A stretch of DNA of 40,087 bases, taken from assembly GCF_000817785.2 (NCBI RefSeq), contig NZ_JTCM02000058.1, forward strand, positions 1 through 40,087, read 5' to 3'. Every line of letters starts with the position of its first letter. Position 1 is the first letter of the stretch. This document shows positions 6,484 through 32,182 of the stretch, piece by piece. The stretch comes from Hassallia byssoidea VB512170 (GTDB lineage: Bacteria; Cyanobacteriota; Cyanobacteriia; Cyanobacteriales; Nostocaceae). The position numbers and the translations under genes are program-made. The notes under the pieces are model-generated. The model ran no database searches. It worked only from the letters and a program-made list of their open reading frames with translations, and was not told the DNA's origin.

Positions 6484-7728
6484 GTGGTAAGCATTCAAGA
6501 TATCAACACTATCATTTCACCTGAGACAGCGCGACCAGACTCGTTAGGCAGATTTGGTAAGTTCGGCGGTAAGTACGTCCCAGAAACCTTAATGCCCGCA
6601 TTAAGTGAGTTAGAAACCGCATACGAGCAATATCGCCACGATGCTAGCTTCCAAGACGAGTTGCAAGGTTTACTCAAAGACTACGTGGGAAGACCTAGCC
6701 CATTATATTTTGCCGAACGCCTGACCAAGCACTACGCCCGACCTGATGGCACAGGAGCGCAAATTTATTTAAAACGCGAAGATTTAAATCATACAGGCGC
6801 TCACAAAATTAATAACGCTTTAGCGCAGGTGTTATTGGCAAAGCGCATGGGTAAAAAGCGGATTATCGCTGAAACCGGTGCAGGTCAGCATGGAGTTGCT
6901 ACGGCAACCGTGTGTGCGCGTTTTGGTTTTGAATGCGTGGTTTACATGGGTGTCCAAGATATGCAACGCCAAGCCCTGAACGTATTTCGGATGCGTTTGA
7001 TGGGTGCGGAAGTACGTCCCGTGGAAGCTGGTACGGGAACTTTGAAAGATGCTACCTCAGAGGCAATTCGCGATTGGGTGACGAATGTAGAAACCACCCA
7101 TTACATCTTGGGTTCCGTTGCAGGTCCCCATCCCTACCCGATGTTAGTGCGTGACTTTCATGCCGTAATTGGTACAGAAACTCGCGCTCAATGTCAAGAG
7201 AAATGGGGCGGTTTGCCAGATATTCTTTTGGCTTGTGTTGGTGGTGGTTCTAATGCGATCGGCTTGTTCCATGAGTTTGTAAATGAAGCATCTATCCGCC
7301 TGATTGGAGTTGAGGCAGCCGGTGAAGGTGTCGATACAGAAAAACATGCAGCTACCTTGACAAAAGGACGAGTAGGTGTATTGCACGGTGCGATGAGCTA
7401 TCTACTGCAAGATGAAGATGGTCAGGTAATCGAGGCACATTCGATTAGTGCCGGGTTAGATTATCCCGGTGTGGGTCCTGAGCATAGTTATCTAAAAGAA
7501 ATTGGTCGCGCCGAATATTACAGCGTGACTGATAAGCAAGCTTTAGAAGCATTGCAGAGACTTTCGCAGCTAGAAGGAATCATTCCCGCTTTAGAAACCG
7601 CTCATGCGATCGCCTATCTTGAAACCCTTTGTCAACAGCTTGATGGTAATCCCCGAATCATCATCAACTGCTCAGGTCGTGGTGACAAAGACGTGCAAAC
7701 CGTCGCGAAAGCGCTCAGTGTTGAGTAG
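6484..7728 (+). CDS. trpB: Tryptophan synthase beta subunit
   Basis: A 414-residue PLP enzyme that joins indole and serine into tryptophan. The start is a GTG at 6484, supported by AAAGGA 8-9 nt upstream. Visible hallmarks are [12 protein letters not shown], the PLP lysine Lys108 in [27 protein letters not shown], the phosphate-binding [28 protein letters not shown] and the C-terminal CSGRGDKD. This is the TrpB1 type that pairs with TrpA, consistent with trpA immediately upstream. Full length and intact. It has a standard Shine-Dalgarno, unlike trpA. Confidence 0.97.
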
Positions 7729-10738: not shown

Positions 10739-11497
10739 ATGGCAGATTCTAATGTCAACTCTTTTAGTAGTAGTAGCAATCCCCTTGATGGTGGTAGCTC
10801 AACGGGTGGCAATATCATTGGTAGCAATTCCAATACTTTTGATGATGGCATCTCATATCAAGGTAGCAGCAGTTCATCGGATCTTGGGCAATCACCCTTC
10901 GGTCGTTTACGTGAAGTTACTGATTTAAACACCATATTTAATGGTGTCGGTAGTGGAGGCGAAAACCCGTTTGCTAACAACCCATTAGGTGCCCAGGTAC
11001 TGTTTGGTGGTGACAATCAGGGGGGATCGCCCTTTACTAATTTAAGGACGAACATTGACAATCTAGTTGGTACTGCTACCAATGGCAGCAACCCGACAGG
11101 TGGCAGCGGTAGCACTAATCCGTTTGCAAATGGTGGCATTTCCGCTCAGTCTGTTGATGATGGCACCACAAGTGTTGGTGGTAGCAATATTCCGTCATTC
11201 GATGGTGGTGACACAAACGCAACCGGGTTTGAGATGAGGGTTATGATTGATAACCTGGTTAACTCGAAGCTCAGTGAAAATGGTATTAATGTAGGTGTAG
11301 GTGGTGCTATCCCCATCGAAGGTGGCGGCATCGGTACCGGTCCTGAAGGTGGCAATCTCAGCGATCCGTTTGCACCTGGAGGCAGCAACCCATTTGGCAT
11401 CCCATTTGATGAGATATTAAGTGAGTTTGGCATCCCATCTGATGAAACATTAGATAAGTTTGGCATCCCATCTGATGGCAGCTTTAGTGAAGGTTGA
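10739..11497 (+). CDS. Asn/Gly/Ser-rich repeat protein 1 (unknown function)
   Basis: A 252-residue low-complexity protein dominated by Gly, Ser and Asn. The start is well supported: ATG with AGAAGGA 9 nt ahead. There is no signal peptide or membrane segment. NPFAN and SNPFG motifs recur (NPFANNPLG, NPFANGG, SNPFGIP), matching the NPFASGE heptads of the larger neighbour at 11980. Near the C-terminus an 11-residue unit repeats three times: FGIPFDEILSE, FGIPSDETLDK, FGIPSDGSFSE. Two short ordered segments, FGRLREVTDLN and FEMRVMIDNLVNSKL, may be helices; the second resembles SVEQLLDSVIVKLRNRL of the neighbour. It is probably an exported or surface/matrix protein, but no export signal is recognised. 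No known family recognised. Confidence 0.8.
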   Translation: MADSNVNSFSSSSNPLDGGSSTGGNIIGSNSNTFDDGISYQGSSSSSDLGQSPFGRLREVTDLNTIFNGVGSGGENPFANNPLGAQVLFGGDNQGGSPFTNLRTNIDNLVGTATNGSNPTGGSGSTNPFANGGISAQSVDDGTTSVGGSNIPSFDGGDTNATGFEMRVMIDNLVNSKLSENGINVGVGGAIPIEGGGIGTGPEGGNLSDPFAPGGSNPFGIPFDEILSEFGIPSDETLDKFGIPSDGSFSEG

Positions 11498-11979: not shown

Positions 11980-13779
11980 ATGGCAACTTACACTGACAAT
12001 TCCATTAATGAGCTTAATCAATCACTAACTGGTGATAGCTTGTCAACTGGTATTAGCAATCCCCTAGCTGTTAATGACAATCTCTTGACTGGCAGCTTGA
12101 GTACCTCTTTTTCTGGTAGTAGCAGTCTGTCTGAAATTGAAGACAGCAGTAACTCAAGCTTCCAGAATATTGGTGGTAGTAGCAGCAATTCCACAACAGT
12201 TATTAAAAGCAACCCGTTTGCTATTGTTGGCAACGTAGTTGTTGGTAATGGTCAATGGATAAGCAATAATGAAACCACACCAGAGAGTGTTTCTTCAGCG
12301 TTCGCGGGTAGTGTTGAGCAATTGCTTGACTCGGTTATTGTCAAACTGCGTAACAGATTGCCCTTGAGTGATGCTGGCAATAATTCCAGTGATGGCAACC
12401 CGTTTGCTAATGGAAACAACCCTTTTGGTGATGGCAATCAGCCTTCAGCACCAGGTTTGGTATTGAATGTCAGTGGTGAAAACCCAGTTGCAAGTGGTGA
12501 GAATCCGTTTGCAAGTGGTGAGAACCCGTTTGCAAGTGGTGAGAACCTGGTTACAAGTGGTGAGAATCCGTTTGCAAGTGGTGAGAACCTGGTTACAAGT
12601 GGTGAGAATCCGTTTGCAAGTGGTGAGAACCCGTTTGCAAGTGGTGAGAACCCGTTTGTAAGTGGTGAGAACCCGTTTGCAAGTGGTGAGAACCCGTTTG
12701 CAAGTGGTGAGAATCCGTTTGCAAGTGGTGAGAATCCGTTTGCAACTGGTGGTGCTAATCAGCAACCATCCTTCGATATCTCGCAATTCATCTTTGGTAA
12801 CGACGACAACCTAACATTCTTAACTGGTGATGGCAGTGTGCCTCAGTTATCATCCTCGGAGATATTGAAGACTGTCCAAGATAATATCTTAAACGTAACT
12901 GAAATTCTCAATTCTGGAAATCTGTTTGCAGAAGGTAACAATACACCTTTGCAAACACCGTCAGATTTGTTGAAGCTGTTCAGGAATGACATGTTCAGCT
13001 TTAACAGCGGTGTCAACGCTGTCAACGAACTTGCTAGTGGTGACAGTTCGTATACTGATGGTAGCAACCCGTTCCTCAGCTTATTTACTGGTGGCAGTCA
13101 AGATAAGGAAATACCGTTTGATATTTTGAACGTTGCCTTAGAAGGAATTTTACCCTTCAATGGCAAAGATAACGTGTTTTCTACCCCAGAAGGCGAACTA
13201 CCGATTGGTTATGGCAATCACGACTTTGGGATTAAGAACGCAACCATCGGTAATGCCAACTGGGATTACGGCAACGCCAACGCAACTATCGGTAATGGCA
13301 ATTGGCTTTGGGATTCCAGCACTCGTAACGCAACCATCGGTAATGGTAACTGGAATTTAGATGCCTCTCATGACAACAGAACTGTTGGTAATGGTAACTG
13401 GTATTGGAATTCAACTAGTGACAATACAACTTTAGGTAATGGCAATTGGAGTTTTGGAAATAACAACACAACTCTTGGTAATGGTAACTTTGACTTCGGT
13501 AGTAACAACACAGTGATTGGTAGTGGCAACAAAGTCTTCACCAGTAACAGCATAGTCATAGGTAATGGCAACTGGTCTGTAGTTATTGACAAATCAAGTG
13601 CTGGTGCTAGCGACTTGATGACTCAGCTAGATACATGGGTGTCTATTATGGGAGTCAAAGATGCTACTGATAATCTAGTGAATTCAGTGTTGAGTAAGTT
13701 GGGTGAAGCTTTTGAGCCGCTAACAGACGATCTTACTGCATCAGGTAGTAAGACATATGACCGACTATTTTTATCTTAA
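11980..13779 (+). CDS. NPFASGE / IGNGNW repeat protein 2 (unknown function)
   Basis: A 599-residue protein with a strong start (ATG, GAGGAG 8 nt ahead) and a terminator hairpin after it. Layout: Ser/Asn-rich N-terminus (1-165, with IVGNVVVGNGQW near 90), 13 heptads of the NPFASGE type (168-258, 21-bp DNA repeat), a middle region with helix-like segments (260-410), then eight turns with core (A/T)(T/V)(I/L)GNGNW spaced 14-16 residues (about 418-538), and a short C-terminal region (GASDLMTQLDTW...). The regular IGxGN core with 14-residue period recalls the left-handed beta-roll of YadA-type adhesin heads; that is an inference from pattern only. No signal peptide, TM segment or C-terminal anchor is recognised. 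It shares the NPFA motif with the protein at 10739, so both are probably parts of one extracellular structure. The function is unknown. Confidence 0.85.
   Translation: MATYTDNSINELNQSLTGDSLSTGISNPLAVNDNLLTGSLSTSFSGSSSLSEIEDSSNSSFQNIGGSSSNSTTVIKSNPFAIVGNVVVGNGQWISNNETTPESVSSAFAGSVEQLLDSVIVKLRNRLPLSDAGNNSSDGNPFANGNNPFGDGNQPSAPGLVLNVSGENPVASGENPFASGENPFASGENLVTSGENPFASGENLVTSGENPFASGENPFASGENPFVSGENPFASGENPFASGENPFASGENPFATGGANQQPSFDISQFIFGNDDNLTFLTGDGSVPQLSSSEILKTVQDNILNVTEILNSGNLFAEGNNTPLQTPSDLLKLFRNDMFSFNSGVNAVNELASGDSSYTDGSNPFLSLFTGGSQDKEIPFDILNVALEGILPFNGKDNVFSTPEGELPIGYGNHDFGIKNATIGNANWDYGNANATIGNGNWLWDSSTRNATIGNGNWNLDASHDNRTVGNGNWYWNSTSDNTTLGNGNWSFGNNNTTLGNGNFDFGSNNTVIGSGNKVFTSNSIVIGNGNWSVVIDKSSAGASDLMTQLDTWVSIMGVKDATDNLVNSVLSKLGEAFEPLTDDLTASGSKTYDRLFLS
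12481..12753 (+). repeat. Thirteen 21-bp tandem repeats encoding NPFASGE heptads
   Basis: Units of AAYCCGTTTGCAAGTGGTGAG type, 13 in succession, exactly 21 bp each. Two units read NLVTSGE instead of NPFASGE, and one each reads NPVASGE, NPFVSGE and NPFATGG. High DNA identity between units implies recent expansion or slippage. Because 21 is a multiple of three, other frames also stay open here; these are not genes. Confidence 0.95.
13231..13593 (+). repeat. Eight IGNGNW-type protein repeat turns
   Basis: Successive units share the core TIGNGNW or TLGNGNW followed by 6-8 variable residues. The spacing is 14, 16, 16, 16, 14, 14 and 14 residues. The DNA has diverged more than in the heptad array, so these turns look structurally conserved rather than freshly duplicated. 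Confidence 0.85.
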
Positions 13780-14116: not shown

Positions 14117-15085
14117 TTATGTCATTACACAATCTAAAATCCCATCTTTTGCATAAGGTAGAATTCCAAAGTAGCCAAGAAAAGTCAAGGTAATATCAGA
14201 GTATTTCTTGCTAATTGTGGAGGCATCGTGAATTACGTTCTCGGTAGGTGCAATGTATGCTTCTCCAGGCGCTACTTTTAGTTTAACTACAGGGTATGAA
14301 GGGTAACTTTTCATAAACTTGTCCCCTATAGATGTCCCCCGATAATTCTTATAAATATCCTCAGGGTCTGACAGACCTAAAGCATGAAACATATCCATCA
14401 AAGTTAGGTTGATGAACAAAAAGTAGCGTTCTTCACATCCCAAATTAATGCATATTCGATTTCTTGATTTGTGTCTGCGTCTGAGGGTATCTCTATCCCA
14501 ACTGTCAAGGTGCATTCCATCATAGCGTTTTTTGGGGATGCTGTTATGATAACCACTTGTTACTGTTGTCAATCCTGGTAGTGTTGTTTGAATACCTAGT
14601 AATTGTAATCTGTTACTAGATAGACAATAACGCTCAACGTGCTTCATAACTTTTGCAATAGCATTCTCGCGTTCTGGATGTGTATCAAGAAATTGACATT
14701 CTTCTAGTGTGGCAGCCGAACTTTTCCTAATATTTTCAAGTATGGCTTCAAGTGGTGCCAAGACCTCGTTAGGGAAGCGAACCACTCCTATAGATGAACC
14801 AAGATCCCAAGAGCTAAGGTTCAAGATTGGTTCATTTGCACGTAGGAGACTATATTCCGTTAGACTCGGTTCTCTCCAAGGTTCTCTAGGCAAAAAAGCA
14901 TCAGTACGATATATTATATCAGAGGCTGATTCAATTTCCTGTGTCGTGCCCGAACTCAGCCAAATTCTAGAACTGTGCTGGTCAGTATTGGCATCACAAA
15001 AAACTTGAATTCCTTTTTTTATTTCTACAATTTCCTTAACTAACATAGCATTAACCCAAATTGTTTCTAGCTGAAAACTGCTCAA
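14117..15085 (-). CDS. 2-oxoglutarate/Fe(II)-dependent oxygenase-like protein of the RiPP-like operon
   Basis: A 322-residue protein, last in a three-gene minus-strand operon. The C-terminal half has features of a double-stranded beta-helix oxygenase. YDGMHLDSWDRDT supplies an HxD pair (His192, Asp194), and APTENVIHDAST about 90 residues later a distal His (His286), together a plausible Fe(II) facial triad. The downstream SDITLTFLGYF strand fits the fold. The N-terminal half is unrecognised. The start is uncertain: TTG at 15085, or ATG at 15046 (MLVKEIVEIKK), giving 309 residues; neither has a strong Shine-Dalgarno. By position it would hydroxylate or otherwise oxidise the product of the upstream radical SAM enzyme. 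Family assignment is from motif spacing only. Confidence 0.7.
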   Translation of the reverse strand: MSSFQLETIWVNAMLVKEIVEIKKGIQVFCDANTDQHSSRIWLSSGTTQEIESASDIIYRTDAFLPREPWREPSLTEYSLLRANEPILNLSSWDLGSSIGVVRFPNEVLAPLEAILENIRKSSAATLEECQFLDTHPERENAIAKVMKHVERYCLSSNRLQLLGIQTTLPGLTTVTSGYHNSIPKKRYDGMHLDSWDRDTLRRRHKSRNRICINLGCEERYFLFINLTLMDMFHALGLSDPEDIYKNYRGTSIGDKFMKSYPSYPVVKLKVAPGEAYIAPTENVIHDASTISKKYSDITLTFLGYFGILPYAKDGILDCVMT

Positions 15086-15170
15086 AAAATCTCGGAAAGT
15101 TACCGTAATATCGAATAATACGGTACTGTATACTCAACTATTTTTGCGTACAAAAGAGGACGGTTTGATG

Positions 15171-16355
15171 TCACAAAGGACAATCTAGTGCTGGTATAGA
15201 TTTAGAAGGAATTCGATGTTTGATGTTGAGTTTACCAGTTGCAGAATCGATAATACCAGCTTGTTTTAAACGCATCTCAATATGCTGTAAAAGTCCTCTT
15301 TCTTTGATGCATAACATATTACCTTTATCATCAACTTGATTGTGAAGAATGCCCTCCTCCGCTACTGGGTAACCACTACAGCTTCCGAAGTATGGGCAAA
15401 AAGTACACGTAGAAGCTATGCGTTCTTCTGCTGCTTTTATTACTTTCTGATGAGCAGATCCCAGTACTATCTCTTCCATAGAATCCTTGAATAAATTACC
15501 GTGACTAAACTCAATGTTATAAGCATCTGCATAACTATAAACATCACCTGTAACATTTACTAAATAAATCGATTCCCATTCTTTTTTGTCATAATAAAAG
15601 GGTTCTGAGTCAGGACTGTAGTAATGAAGAATCTGTTGAATGTGATCCATAATTGGCTGAACTACCACTAACCGATCGCCTTCCATCCACAAGTCAACAA
15701 GAGTGCAAAAAGCACTCAAAACTTCGTTAGCATTAATTTCAAATCCTTTATGTTGTCCATCAAACGCTCCATTAAATAGTGGCAACAATCGAAAAGAAAG
15801 ATTCATTTTTTCAAAAAATTTATAAATTTTTTGAATATAAGGCAAATTCAATTTAGTTAAAACAGTGATACATCCATAGGGAATATTTTCATCTCGCAGG
15901 CGATCCATGTTTTTTAATACTGTTGTTTGAGAATCCATACCAGCTTGATTAGTGCGTAAACCTCCAAATAAATCTACAGAAACACCCACACCATCAAATC
16001 CATCTCTCAATAATTGGATACGTTCTTTATTAAGCACAGTCAGGTTAGTCTGTACGATATTTGTAACAGAGCTTGCGAGTTCACCAAAAATTTCTTGCTG
16101 GCGGTCAAAGGTTTGCCAGTAATAATCTGGTGATTGTAAAAGTGGTTCTCCACCATGCCAAACAAACTCAATTTCTGTAGGGTGATCGAGTTGACTATAA
16201 TAACTGGCAATGTGACTATACATTTTGTCTAATTGTTCTGGCGCAATTGCTGCCCTATTACCTAGTTCTGAGTATTCATAGCAGTAGCGACAGCGTAAGT
16301 TACAAAACTTAGAAGACTTAACAACAAATTGGACTCGCTTTGTGTTGGATGGCAT
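15171..16355 (-). CDS. Radical SAM/SPASM-like peptide maturase (GrrM/XyeB/FxsB-like)
   Basis: A radical SAM enzyme that probably modifies a ribosomal peptide. The cluster motif is FCNLRCRYCYEY (Cys18, Cys22, Cys25), followed by VWHGGEPLL, VQTNLTVL and GVGVSVDL, typical of peptide maturases. The C-terminal part has CTFCPYFGSCSGYPVAEE and a final Cys (Cys317, 320, 326, 349), resembling a reduced SPASM region. The usual early SPASM Cys is not seen in NVTGDVYSYADAYN. I start at the ATG at 16355, which has GAGGT 6 nt ahead and puts CxxxCxxC near residue 18 as in relatives. An upstream ATG at 16451 would add 32 residues. It is preceded by a small leader-bearing protein and followed by an oxygenase gene, the classical order of a RiPP operon. 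Relatives in cyanobacteria build aromatic-ring cyclophanes; the chemistry here is inferred. Confidence 0.88.
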   Translation of the reverse strand: MPSNTKRVQFVVKSSKFCNLRCRYCYEYSELGNRAAIAPEQLDKMYSHIASYYSQLDHPTEIEFVWHGGEPLLQSPDYYWQTFDRQQEIFGELASSVTNIVQTNLTVLNKERIQLLRDGFDGVGVSVDLFGGLRTNQAGMDSQTTVLKNMDRLRDENIPYGCITVLTKLNLPYIQKIYKFFEKMNLSFRLLPLFNGAFDGQHKGFEINANEVLSAFCTLVDLWMEGDRLVVVQPIMDHIQQILHYYSPDSEPFYYDKKEWESIYLVNVTGDVYSYADAYNIEFSHGNLFKDSMEEIVLGSAHQKVIKAAEERIASTCTFCPYFGSCSGYPVAEEGILHNQVDDKGNMLCIKERGLLQHIEMRLKQAGIIDSATGKLNIKHRIPSKSIPALDCPL

Positions 16356-16485
16356 ACTTTTACCTCGATTGTAATTGCTTGCTAGAAATGAGTAATCAAC
16401 ATATTTCTGGGTTTGGCTTGAAAAGGTATTTATAGCGGTTCTCACTGGCATTCAATATATCTCTTGTGCGGTAGAAGACCAAAAA

Positions 16486-16509
16486 GCCCGTCCTAAACTA
16501 AGGACGGGC
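16486..16509 (-). terminator. Terminator/attenuator between precursor and maturase genes
   Basis: GCCCGTCCT and AGGACGGGC form a perfect 9-bp GC-rich stem with a 6-nt loop. Read on the minus strand it is followed by TTTTT, the form of a rho-independent terminator. Its place after the small first gene and before the maturase would give much more precursor than enzyme mRNA. Confidence 0.8.
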
Positions 16510-16651
16510 AAGACGCCCTTCCCACAAGAAAATCACAAATGTGATGCATTTTATTGAGAATTGCTATAAGTTTGAATCAGCAAGATTGACTAACAAAAAA
16601 TTGTTAAATTTTAACTTGTCAGTCAATTATGCATTCGTGAGAAGCGACAGT

Positions 16652-17038
16652 TCAAACCATCAGAGATTGAAATGTATCTACTGCTGAGAGATATTCAGCA
16701 TTAGCTGCTTCATTTGGTAGGCTTTCAAGCATTTTAGGTACGTAGGGTTGGTTTTGTACCCACGATGGACCAGGGTCAACCAGTTTGAAAGCTGGTCTCA
16801 GCGCAACCAAACTTTCTTCGTTAGGGGAAAGTGCTTCTAGTTTCTCACTTAAATTGGAGGAAAACTGGATAGAAGGTATAGAGTTTATAGCCTCCCTAGA
16901 AGAACCAGTATGATTAGAGTTTGTCGCCCCAGCTATACTAGGAAAAGCTACAATAGGAACTGCGCTAACCAGCAATAGACACAGACGATTTGATAGCTTG
17001 CTGTGCAGCACAAATTTGACTTTACTTGCTTTGTTCAT
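16652..17038 (-). CDS. Candidate RiPP precursor or exported small protein with hydrophobic leader
   Basis: A 128-residue protein, first in the operon with the radical SAM and oxygenase genes. Residues 1-18 are basic (MNKASKVKFVLHSKLSNR). Residues 19-38 are hydrophobic and end in SIAGA, like a Sec signal with cleavage after Ala38. The rest is hydrophilic with a Pro/aromatic-rich segment, RPAFKLVDPGPSWVQNQPYV (about 81-100), and a C-terminal tail with Tyr116 and Phe123. Cyanobacterial GrrA/OscA precursors also have a signal-like leader and about 125 residues, but they end in a Gly-rich repeat that is absent here, so this would be a different precursor type. Its aromatic residues are the plausible modification sites. 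No known family recognised. The ribosome-binding site is weak (GGA 10-13 nt upstream of the ATG). Confidence 0.7.
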   Translation of the reverse strand: MNKASKVKFVLHSKLSNRLCLLLVSAVPIVAFPSIAGATNSNHTGSSREAINSIPSIQFSSNLSEKLEALSPNEESLVALRPAFKLVDPGPSWVQNQPYVPKMLESLPNEAANAEYLSAVDTFQSLMV

Positions 17039-17248: not shown

Positions 17249-17818
17249 ATGGTTTCAGAAGATTTATTGTTATATGAGCAACTACTTAAGACTCCAGAGT
17301 ATCAGCAGAGAGTCGAAAGAATTGCCCGATCGCAAACAAGAAATACCTCAAGTTCCTGGGAAGATGCTGTACAGGCAGCTCATGAAAAAGTGTTTCAGGC
17401 AACACAAGCTGGAAAATTTCAAAAAGGAGGAGTAAACGAGTTTTACCGTTGGGCAGCTACTGTAGCTAAATTTCAAATCATCGATCTGGTTCGCAAAGAA
17501 AAGCAATTTATATGTCAAAGTTTAGATCAAAACATTCCCGGTACAGATTTGCCGCTATCAGAAGCGATCGCTGATAAGTTCAATTTATTCGATGCTTTAG
17601 AACGCACGGATCTTATCAACAGAACAATAGATGCCATTATTCAACTAGATAGACACTATCCAGAGCGAGGATATGTCAAACTCTGGCAAGCACAACTTCA
17701 GGGTAAGAAACAATGCCAAATAGCTGCTGAGTTTGGTGTCACTCAGGGAGCAATTTCAAAACGATGGCAGGAATTACGTTCGTGTCTTGCTCAGATGCTA
17801 GGAATGGGGAATGGGTAA
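17249..17818 (+). CDS. Sigma-70-family (ECF-like) RNA polymerase sigma factor
   Basis: A 189-residue sigma-like protein. Residues about 35-85 resemble region 2 ([17 protein letters not shown]...[23 protein letters not shown]). The C-terminal part is a region-4 helix-turn-helix ([30 protein letters not shown]). No separate anti-sigma gene is next to it. It is convergent with the giant caspase-STAND gene; similar sigma genes often accompany such death/conflict proteins in cyanobacteria, and the second giant gene in this window has one too. The last residues (GMGNG) run into a GGGGAATG repeat, so the natural end may have been altered. The ATG has only weak Shine-Dalgarno support. Confidence 0.8.
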
Positions 17819-17950
17819 TGGGGAATGGGGCATGGGTAATAGGTAATAGATAATAGGTAATGGATTTTTTCCAATTAGCAATTACCAATTCCCAATTACC
17901 AATTACCAATTCCCAATTCCCAATTCCCAATTCCCAATTCCCAATTGCTA
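17803..17950. repeat. Inverted heptamer arrays between sigma gene and caspase gene
   Basis: GGGAATG and GGTAATA units (17803-17862) face CCAATTA and CCCAATT units (17868-17945), which are complementary. They lie between convergent genes and could fold into a long hairpin acting as a two-way terminator. Confidence 0.7.
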
Positions 17951-20900
17951 TTGGCAGATGTTACGATCGCCTGTATTAAGATTGGGGTTAGTCGTCAGAT
18001 AATCGTGCAAGCGATCGCATCCACGCTTTAATAATTGCGACAAATTCAATGTTTGCAGTTCTATCCCCGTTAACCGCCAAATTTTTACTGTTTTATCTTG
18101 ACTTGCCGAAACAATCATCTTACCATCTAAACTAAAATTCACACTTCTGACATCACCAGTATGTCCTTGAAAAGTTCTCAGCAACATACCGCTATGTACA
18201 CTCCAAAGTTTGATGGTGTCGTCATCACTAGCTGAAGCAATCATTTGACCGTCAGGAGAAAAACTCAAATTATTAACCGCATCAGTATGTCCGGTTAAGT
18301 TTTGCAACAAGCGACCGTCACGACTCCAGAGTTTGACTGTACCATCCTGACTACCAGAAGCTATTATCTTACCATCCGGGCTGAAAGTTAAAGCCCAAAC
18401 ACTAGCATTATGTCCATTAAGAGTTTTCAACAAACGACCATCGCGACTCCAAAGTTTGATAGAATTGTCAGCACTGGCTGATGCTAACAACTCACCATCT
18501 GGGCTAAATTCAACATTAGTCACCCAACCGTTATGCCCTTTGAGAGTATTTAGCAAGCGACCGTCAAGACTCCAGAGTTTAACAGTTTTGTCAGTACTCG
18601 CAGAAGCGAGGATTTTCGCATCAGGACTGAAGCTCATATTAATTATCCAATCAGTATGCCCTTTGAGGATATGGAGCAAAGAGCCATCACGTTTTCGCAG
18701 TTGGATAGTATTATCAGCACTCGCTGTCGCTACCGTATTTTCATCCTGAGTGAAGCTAATGCTGGTAATATCGTTAATCGGGGAAGGAATAGATTTTAGC
18801 AGCTTACCGTCTAAACTCCAGAATTTCATCGTTTTATCGTTGCTGACCGAGAAAACGGTATTACCATTCGGATTAAACCAAGCGCTATTCACACTATCGA
18901 GATGTCCAAAAAGAGTTTTTGGTGCATTGATATCAAAGTTCCAAAGTCTTATGGTATAATCATCGCTAGCGGAAGCAAGTAGTTGACCGTCTGAACTAAA
19001 ACTAACGCTACCGACTGCATGGTTATGTCCCTGTAAAGTCCCCAACAATTGACCATCCAAGCTCCAAAGTTTGATAGTTTTATCAACACTTGCCGAGGCG
19101 ATGATTTTACCGTTAGGTGAAAAACTAACGCTTTTAACATCGCTGTTATGTCCAGTTAGCGTATTAAGTAAGCGACCGTCACGACTCCACAGTTTTACGG
19201 TATTATCAGCACTAGCAGAAGCAATTGTTTGTCCATCTTTTGACCAAGCTACACTTAAAACCTCATCGGTATGTCCGCTCAGAGTTTTTAGCAAGCGACC
19301 ATCCAGACTCCACAGTTTAATTGTGCGATCGTCGCTACCAGAAGCGATAATATCACCTTGAGGTGAAAAAGTAACGCTATCTATACCTTGGCTGTGTCCG
19401 GTGAGAGTTTTCAGTAACTTGCCATCCCGACTCCAGAGTTTAATAGTATCATCATCGCTACCCGAAACAATCATTTGACCGTTAGGGGAGAAAGCAACGC
19501 TATTAACTCCATCATTATGTCCGGAAAGTGTTTTCAGCAACTTACCATCCCGACTCCAAAGTTTGATAGTTGCATCAGTACCTGCCGAAGCAATAATTTG
19601 ACCGTCAGGAGAGAAACTCACACTATTGACTCCATCGCTATGTCCGCGTAAAGTGTGAAGTAACTTGCCGTCACGCTTCCAAAGTTTGATAGTTGTATCA
19701 GTACTCGCCGAAGCTAGCATTTGTCCATCGGGAGAGAAACTGACACTACTTACCCAAGAATTATGTCCAATCAAACGGTTGCGTTCTTGAGTTTGATCGA
19801 TCGCCTGTTGTAAAGTAGTTGCAGTTGCAGTTTTAATCTGTTTTGTAGTATCAGGATACATCACCTGACTGGAAAACATCATCTTTTGTAACTCTTGCCC
19901 TGCCTTAACACTAGTTGATAGTGCTTCTAGTTGTTTATGCGAGAAAAGAAAGTTTTCTGATAAAGAATTTAAAGCTTGTATTTCTCGCAACTGCGCTTTT
20001 TGACTTTGCTGATAAGCTAAACCTGCAAAAGAGAAAGCAGCTATTCCCAAGATACTGATAACAGTAACAGCTTTTTGCGCTTGTTTGAGTCGGCGTTTTT
20101 CTTGCAGTTGTTGTCGTTGTCTTTCTTCTAGACAAGCAGCAATAAATCGTTGAACATCAAAAGATAGTTCCTCAGTGTAATTGATATAAATATCTTCTGC
20201 TTCAGCCAAACGCACACCCTGCAACAAAAAATCAGATTGTTCACCCCCATGCTTCCATAGCTGTGCAGCTTGCTCAATTTGACGTTGCGATCGCAATCTA
20301 CCACGATTTTCCTCCAACCACCATCGCAAAGTAGACCAATAGCGAATCAGCACCTCATGGGCAACTTCTATCGTCACAGAAGAGGGGAGTGGGGAGTAGG
20401 GAGTGGGGAGTGGGGGAGAGGGGGGGCACATGCGTCCCCACGAAGTGGGGTTGGGGGGAAGGGGGGGAGGGGGAGACAGGGGGAAAGAATTATTCTCCTT
20501 GTCTCCTTGTCTCCTTGTCTCCTTGTCTCCTTTTCTCCCTTGTCCACGCCAGTCGCTACAACGGAGGAGACCTCCGCAACGCGCTGGCTCCCCTTGTCCC
20601 CCTTGTCCACGCCAGTCGCTACAACGGAGGAGACCTCCGCAACGCGCTGGCTCCCCTTGTCCCCCTTCCCCCCCTCTCCCTCTCCCTCCTTCTTCCAAAT
20701 TCACTACTACCAGCTTTGCAGCAGTTAACGCTGCCAGTGTCTTTTCTACCAATGGTGCCGGATATTTTTTCACTATTAACTCTGATTTATACACCCGCCG
20801 ACGAGTATCTTCAGTACCTTCACCTAACTGCGTCAGCGACAGAAAAATCCAACGAGCGCATTCTTGAGCTTCAGCGTCTAAACTCTCGTAAACAGCTTGC

Positions 20901-23338
20901 GCTTTACTTTCCAGCGCTCCTTTAATTCCACCCAAGTGCTGCTGATAAGCTTGTAAAGTTAACTTACCTGCAACTCTATGTTCCCACAACTGCTCTAAAA
21001 CAAATTCTAAAAGCGGTAAATCTCCGGGTGAGCGGTGTAACTCTCGCAACAGTACTTCAACTAATACTGGCTCAACTGTTAAACCGACTTGTTCGGCAGG
21101 GTTAATTATAACGTGGCGATACTCCTCCTCAGTTAAACAGGGCGGTATGAGAATGCTAGACTGCTGCAATAGCTGCGCTAATTTCGGTATTTCCAAACAA
21201 GGTGCGATAAAATCTGCCCGTAGAGTGATGACTATTTTAAGCTTACCTTCGCTTAATTCCAACGCCTGCAAGATAAGTTCTAAAAAGCGCTGTCTGTCAG
21301 CAGCTTGGGCAAGGGTGAATAATTCCTCAAACTGGTCTATAACTAACACAATTACTGGTTCTGGTCGGTTACTTAACCAGTGAGCGAATCCTTGTCCCCC
21401 TTGATACAACATTTGTTCTAGTTGTATTTGCTGATAAGCTTTTTCTTTCTCAGTACCGCTATCAACTAAGCGTCGCGATAAAGCGTCTTGCGGATTTGCA
21501 CCAGGACGAAAGCTTTTAATCCACCATTCTTCGCTACCAGGTAATTGTTTACCGCACCGCAGTTGAGCGATTAATCCCGCTTGCACAACCGATGATTTAC
21601 CGCTACCAGAGGCACCAACTACGGCAAGAAATGACTTACTTGCCAAGTGATGCAGAAGTTGCTGCGTTAAAGCTTCTCTGCCGTAGAAATACTGAGCATC
21701 TTCCGGAGTAAAAGCTCTTAATCCTCGGTAAGGGCAAAGTCCTAAATCAATCCCTTCCGTTAACTTGATATCTCTTATACCAGTCGTGGTAGGTATAATT
21801 TCGATAACGCCTTGAATCCCGGATACCCAAATGTGCAATGGTAATGTATTTGAACAAGATAGTTGCAATTGAGTAATCCAACTAGCTACCGATAAACTAT
21901 TTTGCTGTTGGGCAGCTTTCAGGGTATCGTGGAGAACTTGGGTGAATTGTTCGGGATTGTATGACGGGGAAGCAGCGGCAATGATACACTGTCCTTGTTC
22001 GGAACTTAGTTGCAAGTCTTCTAGCCAATCTTGTAATGAGACTTGTTGCGTTTGGTCACAAAGACAATCTAAGATGATAATTTGTTGAGTGTAAGGCGAT
22101 CGCCTGAGTTGTTGTCTTAACCAAGAGCGACTCAATTGAATATCCGACCCCACCACTAACACCGCTTCCCCCGCTTCAGTTTCCTTCAGTCTGCCACGCA
22201 GATATAATAAAACTGTTGCGTCATGTTCTAAATTTTGAGAATCTTGCTTTTTCTGCAAGCAATTCTGCATTCCTTCTTGAATATATGAAGCAGTTATTTT
22301 ATCAGCTTGTGGCAAATACTTTAACTCAAAGCCACCAACACCGCGTAATAATTTACAAAAATCGAGAGTCGTCTTATTAGTCGTCAGTCCCTCAACAATC
22401 AGCGCTTGTCGCAAAGACGACGATTGCACAACTCCTGATTTTAAACCAAGAACAATTTCCCCAACTCCTTCAACAATCCGCTTCGGAGTTTGCAAAGGAT
22501 ATTCTGAATAAAGTCTGGTTTCTCCTCTACCTCTTTTTTGCTGATTAATCAGTCGCAGTTGTTGATTAGTTTGCTCGATGTATTGCTGCGTCTGATGATA
22601 AATATATCGATAAAGACCGTCCGCTTCAATCAAACCGCGTCCATCAGCTGCTTCACCTCGCAACCCCCGCATTAAATAATAAGTAAAGACTCCGTGTCCT
22701 AATTCCGGAAATTCCCAAGATTGCTGATCTGTGTCACAAGAAAGCAAAGCATAAAATCCTTTACTCTTTTTCGCTTTTTGCCGCAACAAATCTACCATTT
22801 GCGGTGTCAGGTTTTCGCGGTTTGGTATTTCTCCTTTTGCTCCCTTGAGTGACATACTACCGCTATGACAAGCATCCAACAATACCAACTGAGTCTGCGC
22901 TCCACTATGTCCCAATAAATGTAATAATTCCTGTAATCCTAAACCTGTATTCAGTAAATTATCAATTTGCGTATCTGCCAGACACAAAACTACCTGCCCA
23001 GAGTTTGACTCTAGCATCCCGTGTCCAGAAAAATAAAATAAAATCGTGTCTTGTGGTTGAGCCGCAGCAGCAATTTGTTTTAAAGTAGTACGAATATTTG
23101 TTAGTGTCGGCAACTGTGACGAAAAATCGTGGTGAGTCCACACCTCAGTCTGCGGAAACGCTTGGGTTGCATCTGCTAAAGCTGATGCTAAACCCTGACA
23201 ATCAACCGCTGAATAGCGCAAAGACGGCAATCGTTCATCTTGGTATTGGTTTACACCCACTAACACCAACCAAAGTTTTGCGTGTCCGGTTTCTAAAGCA
23301 TAAGTTGAGCGACTAGTAGCAACGCCTAATGGAGACAT
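17948..23338 (-). CDS. Caspase - degenerate caspase - STAND NTPase - TM - WD40 giant protein 1
   Basis: A 1796-residue protein. Order: caspase-like peptidase (20-290) with catalytic His106 in FYFSGHG and Cys157 in LLDACHSG; a second, degenerate caspase-like stretch (310-510) where VLLYLRGR and QIIILDC occupy the equivalent strands but the His is lost; an nSTAND1-type NTPase with Walker [10 protein letters not shown] (575-583), Walker [12 protein letters not shown] and sensor ITLRADF; a repeat-encoded low-complexity insert (DNA 20381-20689); a winged-helix-like part ending [21 protein letters not shown]; one TM helix ([19 protein letters not shown]); 14 WD40 blades, i.e. two seven-bladed propellers; and a short conserved tail ([17 protein letters not shown]). 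By family knowledge, ligand binding to the propellers would release the NTPase and activate the protease, as in bacterial conflict or regulated-death proteins. The ligand is unknown. It is paralogous with 26921-32182. Confidence 0.92.
20381..20689. repeat. In-frame G/C-rich repeat cluster with two 63-bp tandem units inside the caspase gene
   Basis: On the plus strand: GGGAGTG units, a GGGGGG-rich part, TCTCCTTG units, then two copies (20548-20588 and 20611-20651) of a GCCAG...CTGGC imperfect palindrome spaced exactly 63 bp, then CCTTGTCCC units. The protein reads the tandem as two copies of [18 protein letters not shown]. All parts keep the frame. The palindrome is related to elements in the trp operon gaps (3442-3658, 5443-5600). 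Confidence 0.85.
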
Positions 23339-26652: not shown

Positions 26653-26964
26653 ATGAAAAAGCAAATTGTAATGGCGATCGCTTTACCAATAGTATTGGCT
26701 AGTGCAACATCTAGTTTTGCTGGTGAAGTTGTGAAAAAGCCAGTAAAAACACCCAGCGTTACTGTCAAACCAATCGTATCTGCACCCGTGACTAGTGCAG
26801 GAGATGACACACAAAGAATTGGTGAAGGCAATATCAAAAAGAAACCCGTGAAACCTCCTAACCCTCCCCGTAGAGAACGAATTTTGGTCAACCAACCCCA
26901 AATTTTACAGCCTGTCAATTCTACTCTTTCAAATCGAAACACAAATCCCGCTCTTGGTTACTAA
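26653..26964 (+). CDS. Small secreted RIGE/PP-repeat protein
   Basis: A 103-residue protein with a clear Sec signal peptide ([20 protein letters not shown], cleavage near SSFAGE). The mature part is Lys/Pro/Val-rich and carries one copy of the repeat found in the upstream gene: [22 protein letters not shown]. It lies 41 nt after that gene and is probably cotranscribed. Its last 44 nt overlap the 3' end of the convergent caspase gene. Function unknown; an exported peptide, envelope-binding protein or signalling precursor are all possible. Confidence 0.72.
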
Positions 26965-29900
26965 GCTTGGGGTTATTCTCTAAATAATCATGCAACCATC
27001 GACAACTGCGAGTCAACAGATGATCTAAATCTGTGGTTTGCAGTTGTTTGCTATCAATACGCCAAAATTTAACTGTACCATCTTTACTGGAAGAGGCAAT
27101 CATTTTACTATCAGGGCTGAAACTGACATCGTTGACAGCTTGGCTATGTCCCGAAAACGTCTTTATTTCTATACCATCAATACTCCATAATTTCACTGTA
27201 TTGCCGTCACTAGAAGCAATCATCTTCGCTTGCGGATTAAAAGTTACATTCCAAACTGCCTCAGGTTGCTCTTGCAGAGTTTGTAGTAACTTACCATCTT
27301 TCACCCGCCAAAGTTTTATAGTTTTATCAGAACTAGCAGAAGCGAGAATATCACCTTGAGTGTTAAAACTTATACCACCAACAGCATTAGTATGTCCGGT
27401 CAGGGTTCGCAGTAACTTTCCATCGCTTACTCGCCAGATTCTCACTGTGTTATCTCTGCCACCGGAAGCGAGAATATCACCTTTAGGGCTAAAACGGACG
27501 CGAAAAACTTCACCGTTATGTCCTGTTAAGGTTCTAATAAGTTTGCCATCTTTTACTCGCCATAATTTAATAGTTGCATCCGCACTTGCTGATGCGAGAA
27601 TATCTCCATTTGGACTGAAAGTGACATTATTAACTTCATGTTCATGTCCTATAAGAGTTTTAATCATATAGCCGTCACGAGTTCGCCACAGTTTCACCCA
27701 GCCTTCGGCACCAGCAGAAGCCAGAGTTTGCCCGTCTGGACTAAAACTGACACCATAAACAGCATCTCTATGTCCCAGTCCAGTAGGCAACTTGTCTAAT
27801 CCTTCTAGAGAAAAGCGCAAAGTCATATTCGGTAGTTGCCAAAGTTTGATTGATTTGTCGTCACTTGCCGTTGCCAGGAGATTACCTTGCGGGCTGAAAC
27901 TAACACTATTTACCCCAAAGTTCTGTTGAGTGAGAGTTTTAATTAAACTGTTGTCTCGCCGCCAAAGTATAACACTTTGATCTCCGCTAGCTGAGGCTAA
28001 AGTCTGACCATCCGGGCTGAAACTAACACCAAAGACTTCTATAGTGTGTCCCAGGAAAGTTTGCAGCAAAGTGCCATCTTGGGAATTCCAAAGTTTAATT
28101 GCGGTATCAAAACTAGCTGAGGCTAAAGTTTGACCATCGGGGCTGAAACTTACCGATGTTACTTGATCGTTATGTGCTGAAATTGTTTTTGGCATAGCAT
28201 CGCTAATTCTCCAAATTTTGATAGTTTTATCAGCACTACCTGAAGCTATTTTACCGTCAGGACTAAAAGCCACACTGTTAACTGCCCCAGTATGCCCAGT
28301 TAAAGTTTTTAGCAAAGTCCCGTCACTAATTCTCCAGATTTTAATAGTTTTATCAGCGCTACCTGAAGCGATTGTTTGACTGTCGGGACTAAAACTAACA
28401 CTGTTGACATCACCATTATGACCTGACAAAGTTCTGATAAGTTTACTATCACTAACTCTCCAGATTTTAATAGTTTTATCAGCACTACCAGAAGCAATCA
28501 TATTACCTTGACCAGACCAAGATACACTATAAACCTCAGCTGAATGGGCATTGATAGTTTTAATTAAAGTACCGTCACTTGTGCGCCACAGCTTTAGTGT
28601 GTTGTCAAAACTAGCAGTAGCAATCATTTTACCGTCAGGGCTAAAGCTGACATCTCTAACCGTGCCCTGATGTCCTGACAAAGTTCGCAGCCACTTACCA
28701 TCACGTCGCCAAAGATACACTGTTTGGTCATCACTAGCAGAAGCAATTGTCTGACCATCAGGACTAAATTTTACACTGTTTACAGCTTTGCTATGTTTCT
28801 CCAAACGGTTGAGTTCTTGAGTATTAGAAAGTGCATGTCCTAAAGAACTTATTGTTTGAAATTGCACATCTTTTGGTGCGCTAATAATTTGCTTTAGCTG
28901 CTTACCTGCTTTGACACTAGCAATTAGTGCATCAAGCGGCTGATTGGATAAAAACTTAGCTTCCGATGATGAATTTAATGCTACGATTTCTCTAAGTTGA
29001 GCCTTTTGACTTTGGAAATAAGCTAAACCAGCAAAACTAGAAGCTGCTATTCCTAAAAACGAGAGTGCAACAACGGCTCTTTGAGCTTGTCGAAGTCTTC
29101 TTTTTTCTTCAAATTGTTGGCGTTTTCTTTCTTGTAAACAAGCTTCAATAAATTGTTGAACATCCGCAGAAAGTTCATCAGTATATTTGATGTAAATATC
29201 TTCTGCTTCAGCCAACCGCACACCCTGCAACAAAAAATCAGATTGCTGACCACTTTGCAACCATAATTGTGCAGCTTGCTCAATTTGACGTTGCGATCGC
29301 AACCTACTACGATTTTCCTCCAACCACCAGCGCAAAGTTGACCAATGGCGAATTAAAATTTCATGGGCAACTTCTACCGTCACCGCCGGGAGTGGGGAGT
29401 GGGGAGTAGGGAGTAGGGGAGATGGGGGAGATGAGGAGACAAACTCCCCCTGCCCCCTGCCCCCTGCCCCCTGCCCACTCTCCTCCCCCTCTTCCTCCAA
29501 GTTCATCACAATTAACTTGGCAGCAGTTAACGCTTGCAGAGTTCTTTCCACCAACGCAGCTGGATATTTTTTCACAATCAACTCTGATTTGTGTATCCGT
29601 CGTCGAGTATCTTCTGTACCCTCTCCTAACTGCGTCAAAGATAGAAAAATCCACTTAGCACATTCTTGCGCTTGGGGGTCTAAACTTTCGTAAACAGCTT
29701 GAGACGATCGCTCTAATGCTCCTTTAATTCCACCTAGTTCATCTTGATACGCTTGCAAAGTTAACTCACCTGTAGAGCGATGTTGCCATAATTGTTCTAA
29801 AACAAATTCCAGCAAAGGTAAATCGCCGACCGAGTGGTTTAACTCACGTAGTAAAACTTCTACTAATTCTGGTTCGAGTTTTAACCCTACTTGTTGAGCC

Positions 29901-32182
29901 GGGTTAACAATCACCCGCCGATAATCGTCTAAACTTAGCCGAGGTGGAACTAATACACTCGACTCCTGTAAAACTTCAGCCAGTCTCGGTACTTCCAAAC
30001 ACGAGGTAATAAAGTCCGCTCGTAAAGTAATAATTAACTTAAAACGGTCTTTCGCATATTCCGCAGCTCCCAGCACCAATTCTAAAAAGCGCTCTCTGTC
30101 TGTAGTTGAGGCAAGAGTGAATAATTCCTCAAATTGGTCTATCACCAAAACTATCATAGGTTCCGGTCGATTACGCAACCAGTAGACGAAGCTTTCTACA
30201 CCCTGGTGCAAGATTCCTTCTAGGAGGAGATGGGGAGAGGGGGGGAGGGGGAGATGGGGAGATGGGGAGGATGAGGGAGATGGGGGAGATGAGGGAGATG
30301 AGGAGGTAAACTCCCCCTGCTCCCTGCCCCCTGCCCCCTGCCCTCTGCCCCCTCCCAACCGTTGCGCCAAAACCTCTATGGGATTAGCACCTGGGCGCAA
30401 AGTTCTAATTAGCCACTGTTCGCTGCTGGGGATTTGTTTACCCAGTCGCAGTTGGGGAATGACACCGGCTTGGACAACTGAAGATTTACCGCTACCAGAA
30501 GCACCGACGACGGCGAGAAATGAGCGATCGCGCAATTGATGAATTAACTGCTGAGTTAAGCTTTCACGCCCGTAAAAATATTGGGCATCTTCTTCTGAAA
30601 AAGCACTTAATCCCATGTAAGGACAGATACCTAAATCTAAACCTGCTTTTTGTTCTCGCCCTTGCATGTAAGTTTTTTCTCTTAAGATTTCGATGATACC
30701 TTGTGTACCGGAAAGCCAGACGTAGAAAGGAATATCGCTACCGGCTAATTGTAATTGCAATTGAGCGATCGCCCCAGCCGCAGATAATCCGTCTACTTCC
30801 GCTGCCGCTGTTAAAGTATCAAATAAAGTTTGGGCGAATTTTTCAGTTGACGACGCAGGAGAAGCACAAGCAATTATACACTGTCCCTCTTGGGAGTCGA
30901 TTTGCAAATCTTCTACCCAATCTTGTAGAGATGCAGAAGCAGGACAATCGAGGATGATGATTTGTTTAGCATTACAGTGACGTAGTTGTTGTTTCAACCA
31001 CGATCGCTTGATGCGGATATCTTCTCCCAGCACCAAACCATCGATAGCTTCAGTTTCCTCGATGCGTCCGCGCAGATAAAGTAAAATAGTTTCTGATTCG
31101 GGTGAGTGTAAAAGACGAGCGATCGATGAACGCACATCCTCAGCAGCCTTTATCGCTTGCAAATATTTCAAGTTAAAACCGCCAACACTATCCAAAAACT
31201 TGCTAATATCTAAAGTTATCGTACTTCCTGATAGTCCCTCTACAACTATCCCCAATCGGCGATGCACATCATCATCAGCTTTTTCTTGCCTAACTCCTAA
31301 AATTATTTCCCCAACTCCTTCGACAATTCGCTTGGGAGTTTGTAGAGGATATTCGCGCTCAAGCTGAGTATCTCCTTTGCCTCTTTTCTGCTGATTAATT
31401 AATCGTAATTGTTGATTAGTTTTATCAATATATTGCAACGTTTGATGATAAACATAGCGATAAAGTCCATCAACAGAAATTATCCCCTTTGAATCTGCTG
31501 CCTTACCATTTAACCCCTGCATTAAATAATAACTAAAAACCCCGTGTCCCAGTTCGGGAAATTCCCAAGATTGCTGATTATTATCGCAAGAAAGCAAAGC
31601 ATAAAAATCTTTACTTTTTGCAGCCGATCGCTGTAATACCTCTACTAATTGCGTTGTCGGGTTCAACAACGGTTCTCTAATTGTTCCCCTTAGTGTCATT
31701 CCACCGCTATGACAAGCATCCAGCCAAACTAACTGCTTCTGCGCTGGACAATTATCTAACAATTGTAATAGTTCTTGTAATTTTAAACCCGTATTTTTCA
31801 AGTTTGATTTTTGCGTATCTGCTAAACATAAAAATGCTTCCTGAGAATTTGGTTCTAGCATTCCGTGCCCGGAGAAATAAAATAAAACCATATCCTGCGG
31901 TTTAGCAGCAGCGGTAATTTCTTGGAGACTAACCCGCACATTCTCCTTTGAAGGTGGTAAAGAAGCAAAATCGTGATGAATTTTCACCTCTTTTTGCGGA
32001 AACTGTGTGGTAGCACCAGTCAAAGCATCCGCTAAACCCTCACAATCGACATATGAATAATTTAGCATCGGGAGTCCTTTATCTTGATATTTATTGACTC
32101 CCACAAGCATTAACCACAGCTTGCTTGTATCTGTTTTTTTAACTTGATTTGAGCGACTAGTACCAACACTGATTGGACACAT
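26921..32182 (-). CDS. Caspase - degenerate caspase - STAND NTPase - TM - WD40 giant protein 2
   Basis: A 1753-residue paralogue of the protein at 17948-23338 with the same order. Caspase: His106 in FYFSGHG, Cys157 in WLDACHSG. Degenerate caspase-like stretch: ILLYLRGR 366-373, QIIILDC 407-413. NTPase: Walker [10 protein letters not shown] 560-568, Walker [12 protein letters not shown]. Then [21 protein letters not shown], a TM helix ([19 protein letters not shown]), 14 WD40 blades and the tail [17 protein letters not shown]. Two repeat-encoded low-complexity inserts are present. One (about residues 610-652) lies before Walker B and is absent from the paralogue; the other is at the same position as in the paralogue. 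Blades 4-6 are nearly identical, with [12 protein letters not shown] in each, and one lacks two residues ([10 protein letters not shown]). It is divergent from a sigma-like gene at 32547. Confidence 0.92.
29387..29495. repeat. In-frame G/C-rich repeat insert in caspase gene 2 (shared site)
   Basis: GGGAGTG units, GGGGGAGATG, then CCCCCTGCC units, encoding a Gly/Ser/Pro-rich linker between NLEEE and VTVEVAHE. The paralogue has its larger insert at the same place (20381-20689). Confidence 0.85.
30227..30355. repeat. In-frame G/C-rich repeat insert in caspase gene 2 (unique site)
   Basis: GGGGAGATG-type units followed by CCCTGCCCC-type units, encoding [16 protein letters not shown] and then Ser/Pro-rich sequence. 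It lies between the Walker A and Walker B parts. The paralogue has ordinary sequence here ([17 protein letters not shown]), which dates the insertion after the duplication. Confidence 0.85.

Follow-up and report, generated by a model that had tools for sequence, protein, structure and literature searches.

A putative triceptide-like RiPP cluster with a MicC-like oxygenase in Hassallia byssoidea and its relatives

Triceptides are ribosomally synthesized and post-translationally modified peptides (RiPPs) with three-residue cyclophanes, and their maturases (3-CyFE enzymes; XncB, OscB/GrrM, MscB, YxdB, HaaB, YhhB) are SPASM-type radical S-adenosylmethionine (SAM) enzymes encoded beside a short precursor gene. 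In the known three-residue cyclophanes the linked residues stand two positions apart (+2): the available portion of PMC11002830 gives Trp to Asn or Asp and Phe to Asn for OscB, and Trp to Arg or Asn for XncB. A cyclophane and a 2-oxoglutarate-dependent beta-hydroxylation on one precursor have a precedent in the fused enzyme ChlBH, according to the available portion of PMC12636437, and a reference title names ChlB a multiple cyclophane synthase. Here we report on three minus-strand genes of the cyanobacterium Hassallia byssoidea VB512170 that lie in a stretch of 40,087 nucleotides of contig NZ_JTCM02000058.1 (the window, in what follows) and encode a small candidate precursor, a radical SAM maturase and a putative 2-oxoglutarate oxygenase (Table 1). 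We think it quite probable that they form a RiPP cluster of the triceptide kind.

The likeness to triceptide systems lies in the SPASM-type radical SAM gene by a short precursor gene and in aromatic-x-polar sites with +2 spacing, which are common to both. The signal-like N-terminus of the precursor is shared with two GrrA-family matches, judged by eye, and homologues of the oxygenase occur at loci with GrrM/OscB and YhhB/FxsB-like enzymes. The locus differs in that its maturase exceeds no cut-off among the models listed and its precursor lacks a Gly-rich core and bears a putative C-terminal follower; furthermore, one clade of relatives has a Nif11 leader, and Gln and Glu are among the predicted acceptors. 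ChlBH, as far as its available description goes, is alike in combining a cyclophane with 2-oxoglutarate-dependent hydroxylation on one precursor, as predicted for the window, but it fuses the synthase to a HExxH hydroxylase, whereas the window has a stand-alone oxygenase, which belongs to a MicC-like family without HExxH. MicC (PDB 9vkm), a 2-oxoglutarate-dependent non-heme iron oxygenase, has the same HxD...H motif but is divergent in sequence. Nif11-leader RiPPs resemble the precursors of four relatives but not that of the window, whose leader is Sec-type. The dynobactin and darobactin systems (DynA, DarE) were compared by maturase score alone, and DynA is the top model among the matches listed, yet at one third of its cut-off. 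We place the system outside the named families of GrrM, DynA and the sulfatase maturases; its mode of action is most likely that of a triceptide system.

A candidate precursor beside the maturase

The search covered 388 genomes from the order and 217 from the family, and one scan of a contig collection supplied a single relative. Complete maturases with more than 50% identity are encoded at 19 loci, the window counted, and at all 19 a small open reading frame (ORF) of the same broad design lies upstream on the same strand, which is the conserved pairing of a short precursor gene with a peptide-modifying enzyme expected of RiPPs in general. Left uncounted were L105, the same region as L027, and L081 (genome G380), where the maturase is truncated to 234 amino acids (aa). 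Alignment A1 omits L092 (470 aa), A2 omits L087, L088, L090, L081 and the second L084 copy, and A3 omits the precursors of L027, L075, L076 and L077. A plasmid collection gave a single weak match, to a Parabacteroides sulfatase-maturation gene. No description of the maturase subfamily was found in the literature searched, which lacked most primary triceptide papers, and we thus do not claim it as undescribed.

An initial annotation of the window had named three minus-strand genes in the order precursor, radical SAM enzyme, tailoring enzyme, and the ORFs exist as it described them (16652-17038, 128 aa; 15171-16451, 426 aa; 14117-15085, 322 aa). The signal-like leader it saw on the small protein also holds up, as a hydrophobic run at residues 19-33 is followed by AGA at 36-38. 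Its proposal of a new RiPP system stands as regards the RiPP, although this looks like a variant of the triceptide kind and not a wholly new system. The annotation knew of no described family with this precursor, and the 128-aa protein matches no NCBIfam family. The oxygenase has a homologue of solved structure in MicC. The GrrA precursor model TIGR04260 has no match in the organism's own genome.

The annotation had also advised searching for homologues of the small protein beside similar radical SAM genes, where the 19 loci now supply them, and had regarded homologues without a maturase as fatal to its proposal. With the window precursor alone as query, 25 of the 388 genomes matched at E up to 0.1. 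Only two, the window's own and G043, did so below 0.001, both beside a maturase; the 23 weaker matches are mostly stop-containing or long unrelated frames, the third best (0.003) falling in a frame of 812 codons. A profile of the core plus C-terminus matched 5 of 376 genomes below 1e-10 (the window's, G318, G003, G321 and G043), all beside a maturase, but these are rows of the profile itself and include no new member, while 11 further genomes at E 0.006-0.08 look like chance. Neither search, over 388 and 376 genomes respectively, revealed an orphan precursor, both being limited tests and the profile a weak one for divergent orphans.

Crosslink sites were predicted from the spacing of residues in the cores of 14 of 20 precursors, six near-duplicates (L110, L112, L113, L114, L115 and L077b) having been dropped; the core was taken, with limits set by hand, to begin at residue 61 or directly behind GG and to run up to the follower. 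Asp, Glu, Asn or Gln stands exactly two positions after 38 of the 56 core Phe and Trp residues, the i to i+2 arrangement of the aromatic-x-x sites of triceptides, while the nine other offsets between -5 and +5 each account for 8-17 of the 56. Shuffled cores gave a mean of 13.5, and none of 5000 shuffles reached 38, a figure that overstates the significance, as internal repeats and kinship inflate the count. For the window the rule predicts W93-V-Q95 as the crosslink site, rather than F84 or Y99. All three aromatic residues had been singled out by the annotation; W93 fits the pattern Omega-x-[DENQ], but F84 and Y99, which have no D, E, N or Q at +2, were rejected as main sites. Among a second group of maturases (L082-L091), with 25-31% identity, the candidate upstream ORFs contain a W/F-x-[DENQ] site in 13 of 13 cases. 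The precursor of L027 (6846-7316) has a core expanded into RYPWG and PIPNPGS repeats and no follower.

The maturase and oxygenase families

The maturase matches the radical SAM family PF04055 (49.8 bits, gathering threshold 29.5) and has a CX3CX2C motif whose cysteines, C50, C54 and C57, are invariant in all 27 rows of an alignment of 26 proteins and the GrrM of L121. Only part of the SPASM cysteines is present, as had been noticed at the outset. The four of auxiliary cluster II (Aux II; C349, C352, C358 and C381) are Cys in all 26 non-GrrM rows, and those of Aux I are absent from all 26: neither the GDVYSYADAY segment, whose counterpart in the anSME alignment bears Cys, nor the eight columns that follow C358 contain any. 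A Cys does occur slightly further on in five of the 26 (FCHGN or VCHGN) and further back in L080, out of register with the GrrM pair. Here the assignment of the anSME cysteines to particular clusters is our assumption.

Among the matches listed (25 of 62), the maturase scores below every NCBIfam cut-off, and a second member, L079, likewise exceeds none. The annotation had considered it damaging if the maturase fell into a family whose substrate is known and unrelated, and no such placement was found among these matches. The top model is DynA (NF041298), at 151.8 against a cut-off of 450 bits. The annotation's comparison with GrrM is not borne out as membership, and we rejected it, the score for GrrM/OscB (TIGR04261) being 94.0 against 310 bits (90.8 in the whole-genome search). 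In an AlphaFold2 model with a mean predicted local distance difference test score (pLDDT) of 81.6, the nearest solved structures are anSMEcpe and then ChlB, which was solved with a precursor leader region.

The HxD...H iron triad proposed for the third protein is H179, D181 and H273, invariant in 26 of 26 homologues. The model of this protein (pLDDT 84) has six Foldseek matches at E of 0.001 or lower, all 2-oxoglutarate enzymes and led by the Kdo hydroxylase KdoO (3e-5), with low query TM-scores of 0.29-0.36. It is homologous to MicC over nearly the full length (phmmer E 1.6e-24, profile E 6.8e-62). By sequence and model, the triad and the related fold place it in the Fe(II)/2-oxoglutarate oxygenase class. 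No Pfam or NCBIfam family is at or near its cut-off for the window protein, nor does Pfam contain one for the four homologues tried, and the substrate and reaction of MicC were not found in the literature searched. Hydroxylation of the crosslinked core is the most likely role of the third gene. The gene is present at 10 of the 19 maturase loci.

Searching with the oxygenase gave 26 loci in 25 of the 388 genomes, and 22 of them were fetched with wide flanks (those of G209, G179, G037 and G193 were left out). A radical SAM gene lies near the oxygenase at 14 of the 22, nine of these outside the maturase family of the window. Seven of the nine were scanned (all but L123 and L126); four exceed the GrrM/OscB cut-off (L121, L092, L122 and L129), and L124, L127 and L128 fall just under the cut-offs of YhhB (390-396 against 445 bits) and FxsB (357-366 against 370). 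Eight of the 22 oxygenase loci have no radical SAM gene in the fetched DNA: L125 and seven in which a gene of 391-416 aa lies beside the oxygenase. In these seven (L093, L116-L120 and L130) that gene follows the oxygenase, and in L093, the only one scanned, it encodes tetratricopeptide repeats and a sulfotransferase; in L116-L120 and L130 a gene of 220-223 aa precedes the oxygenase, with no Pfam family in L116, the one scanned. At L121, a 68-aa ORF (6982-7188, minus strand) ending in WDNSFLQWNDSWGNGGNGH lies upstream of the GrrM/OscB-family and MicC-like oxygenase genes and is a possible triceptide precursor.

Leaders, the C-terminal motif and alternative readings

Judged by hydropathy, the N-terminus is Sec-type at 15 of the 19 loci; the remaining four (L075, L077, L106 and L108) instead have leaders of the Nif11 type, with GG at the end. 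The five candidate precursors of these four loci all pass the PF07862 cut-off, and that of L108 is also over TIGR03798 (48.6 against 32.3 bits). In a maturase tree of 27 rows, whose root rests on the second-group rows and the long GrrM branch, the branch uniting the 19 loci has a support of 90/86, and the four Nif11 loci form one clade (99/98), nested in a supported set of seven (100/99) whose other members, the window, L027 and L107, are Sec-type. One change accounts for the leader label on the 19 rows, against two for the oxygenase and two for the follower. The Nif11 leader therefore looks like one later replacement within a Sec-leader lineage. JmjC_2-type (putative 2-oxoglutarate) gene pairs lie beside both Nif11 clusters that keep the follower (L106, 6576-8714; L108, 836-2957).

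The cores on either side of the replacement are close: GPSWVQNQPY in the window and GPSFVQNQPY in L107, both Sec-type, compare with GPPWVQNQPY in L108 and GPIFAQKQSY in L106, both Nif11. The follower is kept in L106 and L108 and absent in L075 and L077. The leader can thus be exchanged entirely while core and follower persist, which suggests that the maturase reads the C-terminal part of the precursor, while the follower-less L075 and L077 argue against the follower being essential. Conservation is thus not confined to the signal peptide, an outcome that the annotation had named as one that would undo its proposal, as core and C-terminus persist where a Nif11 leader takes its place. The follower itself, SA[VAL][DEGN]x[FL]xx[LI] (SAVDTFxSL-like), lies near the C-terminus at 16 of the 19 loci. 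Within the last 28 residues it occurs in 16 of 2079 distinct frames of at least 60 codons (156 sources), all 16 being candidate precursors and the same sequences from which the pattern was derived; a scan without a length limit found it in two distinct non-precursor frames of less than 40 codons as well. We consider the segment probably a follower or recognition element.

Gene linkage, the +2 rule, the leader replacement, the absence of Aux I cysteines and the homology to 2-oxoglutarate oxygenases, all drawn from sequence, suggest a scheme in which the crosslink chemistry, the order of steps, the hydroxylation, the follower role, the export route and any bioactivity are what we infer. The precursor would be synthesized in the cytosol, where the radical SAM enzyme, equipped with a SAM cluster and with Aux II as its sole auxiliary cluster, would abstract hydrogen from the C-beta of an Asp, Glu, Asn or Gln. 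The C-beta would then be joined to the aromatic ring of the residue that stands two positions earlier, giving a carbon-carbon crosslink and a three-residue cyclophane (W93 to Q95 in the window), with the C-terminal SAVDTFxSL acting as the follower or recognition element for the maturase. The 2-oxoglutarate oxygenase would afterwards hydroxylate the crosslinked core, and export would use Sec in the lineage of the window and a double-glycine route in the Nif11 lineage.

Several points, besides the inflated offset count, weigh against the triceptide reading. The chemistry is a prediction, and in the window the +2 rule is obeyed by W93 but by neither of the other two core aromatics, F84 and Y99. 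The precursors of L076 and L027 have divergent or expanded cores. The follower is missing at 3 of the 19 maturase loci (L027, L075 and L077) and is thus not strictly required; the oxygenase gene is missing from the fetched flank at 9 of 19 (L110 and L112 being on short contigs), which makes it optional. Sec export of an already crosslinked peptide is, to our knowledge, unusual, although the two GrrA-family matches likewise bear a signal-like N-terminus.

A RiPP with some other radical SAM crosslink, such as a dynobactin- or darobactin-like macrocycle, an ether, or a link to Y99 or F84, would fit the rank of DynA among the matches listed (151.8 of 450 bits) and the conservation of Y99 in L106, L107 and L108; the +2 enrichment and the company that the oxygenase family keeps with GrrM/OscB and YhhB/FxsB-like enzymes speak against it, and we regard it as improbable. 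We give very little credence to the notion that the maturase is an anaerobic sulfatase maturase, or modifies a cellular protein, with the small ORF encoding an unrelated secreted protein. The closest solved structure is indeed anSME, but the score of 136.2 bits for TIGR03942 is far below the cut-off of 349, which led us to reject a sulfatase maturase identity; in addition, the Aux I cysteines are missing, and a candidate precursor is present at 19 of 19 loci.

For the third gene, a second crosslink or an oxidative cleavage in place of hydroxylation seems rather unlikely. The available portion of PMC12636437 does name a Cys-Tyr-crosslinking 2-oxoglutarate RiPP enzyme and backbone-cleaving HEXXH enzymes, and the missing activity of MicC in the literature searched leaves room for such a role, but the same portion describes the characterised RiPP 2-oxoglutarate enzymes as largely limited to hydroxylation. 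The predicted window core, moreover, has no Cys, and the HEXXH enzymes have a different, zincin-like fold. A possibility that we take seriously, though we doubt it, is that the C-terminal motif is an envelope-targeting or protease-site signal instead of a maturase recognition element, given its position at or a few residues from the C-terminus in the first group and its absence at three loci that keep the maturase. Its retention across the change from Sec to Nif11 leaders (L106 and L108) argues otherwise, as does a VRDTFxxI-like segment, which a regular expression found in 8 of the 13 ORFs of the second group and which lies at least 30 residues from the end in several of these.

Gene features and wider meaning

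Table 1. Predicted features of the candidate cluster in the window
Feature	Coordinates	Strand	Basis
Candidate RiPP precursor, 128 aa: Sec-type signal peptide, leader segment, core, C-terminal follower	16652..17038	-	ORF and relatives
Predicted Sec signal peptide, residues 1-38 (hydrophobic run 19-33; AGA 36-38)	16925..17038	-	hydropathy scan alone
Predicted core, residues 81-102 (RPAFKLVDPGPSWVQNQPYVPK)	16733..16798	-	GPSWVQNQPY match in L107 and L108 precursors; limits inferred
Predicted crosslink site W93-V94-Q95 (aromatic ring carbon to C-beta of Q95)	16754..16762	-	+2 rule, 14 non-redundant precursors
Putative follower motif SAVDTFQSLMV, residues 118-128	16655..16687	-	16 of 19 loci
Intrinsic-terminator-like hairpin, 9 pairs, 7 GC, then T5	16486..16509	-	between precursor and maturase genes
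Radical SAM maturase, likely start M33, CX3CX2C cluster, Aux II cysteines only	15171..16355	-	alignment
MicC-like Fe(II)/2-oxoglutarate oxygenase from likely ATG	14117..15046	-	alignment of relatives

Alignment with relatives makes M33, at 16355, the likely start of the maturase (394 aa), although its ORF opens at 16451, and residues 1-34 of the ORF have a pLDDT below 50 in the AlphaFold2 model. The oxygenase likewise probably starts at the ATG at 15046, the ORF opening at a TTG at 15085. The hairpin between the precursor and maturase genes consists of GCCCGTCCT, a loop and AGGACGGGC, followed by T5; a 76-nucleotide fold has a z of -5.2, and a scan of the region found 3 terminator-like sites where 2.2 are expected. 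The hairpin could, in our estimate, give a higher output of precursor than of enzymes. Its exact 17-base part has one copy in the genome, which excludes an exact dispersed repeat, exact copies being what was sought.

Divergent from the precursor gene is a gene for a sigma-70 family factor (17249-17818, plus strand; TIGR02937, 47.2 bits against a cut-off of 42.9), which could regulate either neighbour. Two very large minus-strand genes (17948-23338, 1796 aa; 26921-32182, 1753 aa) encode proteins with an nSTAND1 NTPase and WD40 repeats. The former has, by eye, a caspase-like N-terminus and contains low-complexity repeats, running in frame, that resemble an insertion of intergenic repeat sequence. 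NPF-rich repeat proteins are encoded on the plus strand at 11980-13779 and 10739-11497; the longer one contains GENPFAS units as well as repeats like TIGNGNW and matches PF21300.

If the triceptide reading is correct, the locus would enlarge the set of likely cyclophane-forming radical SAM enzymes by a maturase subfamily that fits no curated model, provide a simple sequence rule for the sites of this subfamily and tie a single oxygenase family to three such enzyme lineages. It is conceivable, though we put it forward tentatively and with some doubt, that a follower-guided cyclophane maturase let evolution swap the whole leader once, from Sec to Nif11/double-glycine, shifting the export route of the same crosslinked core. 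The nested replacement is a natural experiment that bears on which part of the substrate a RiPP maturase recognises, and the near-identical cores on two different leaders make that question testable.

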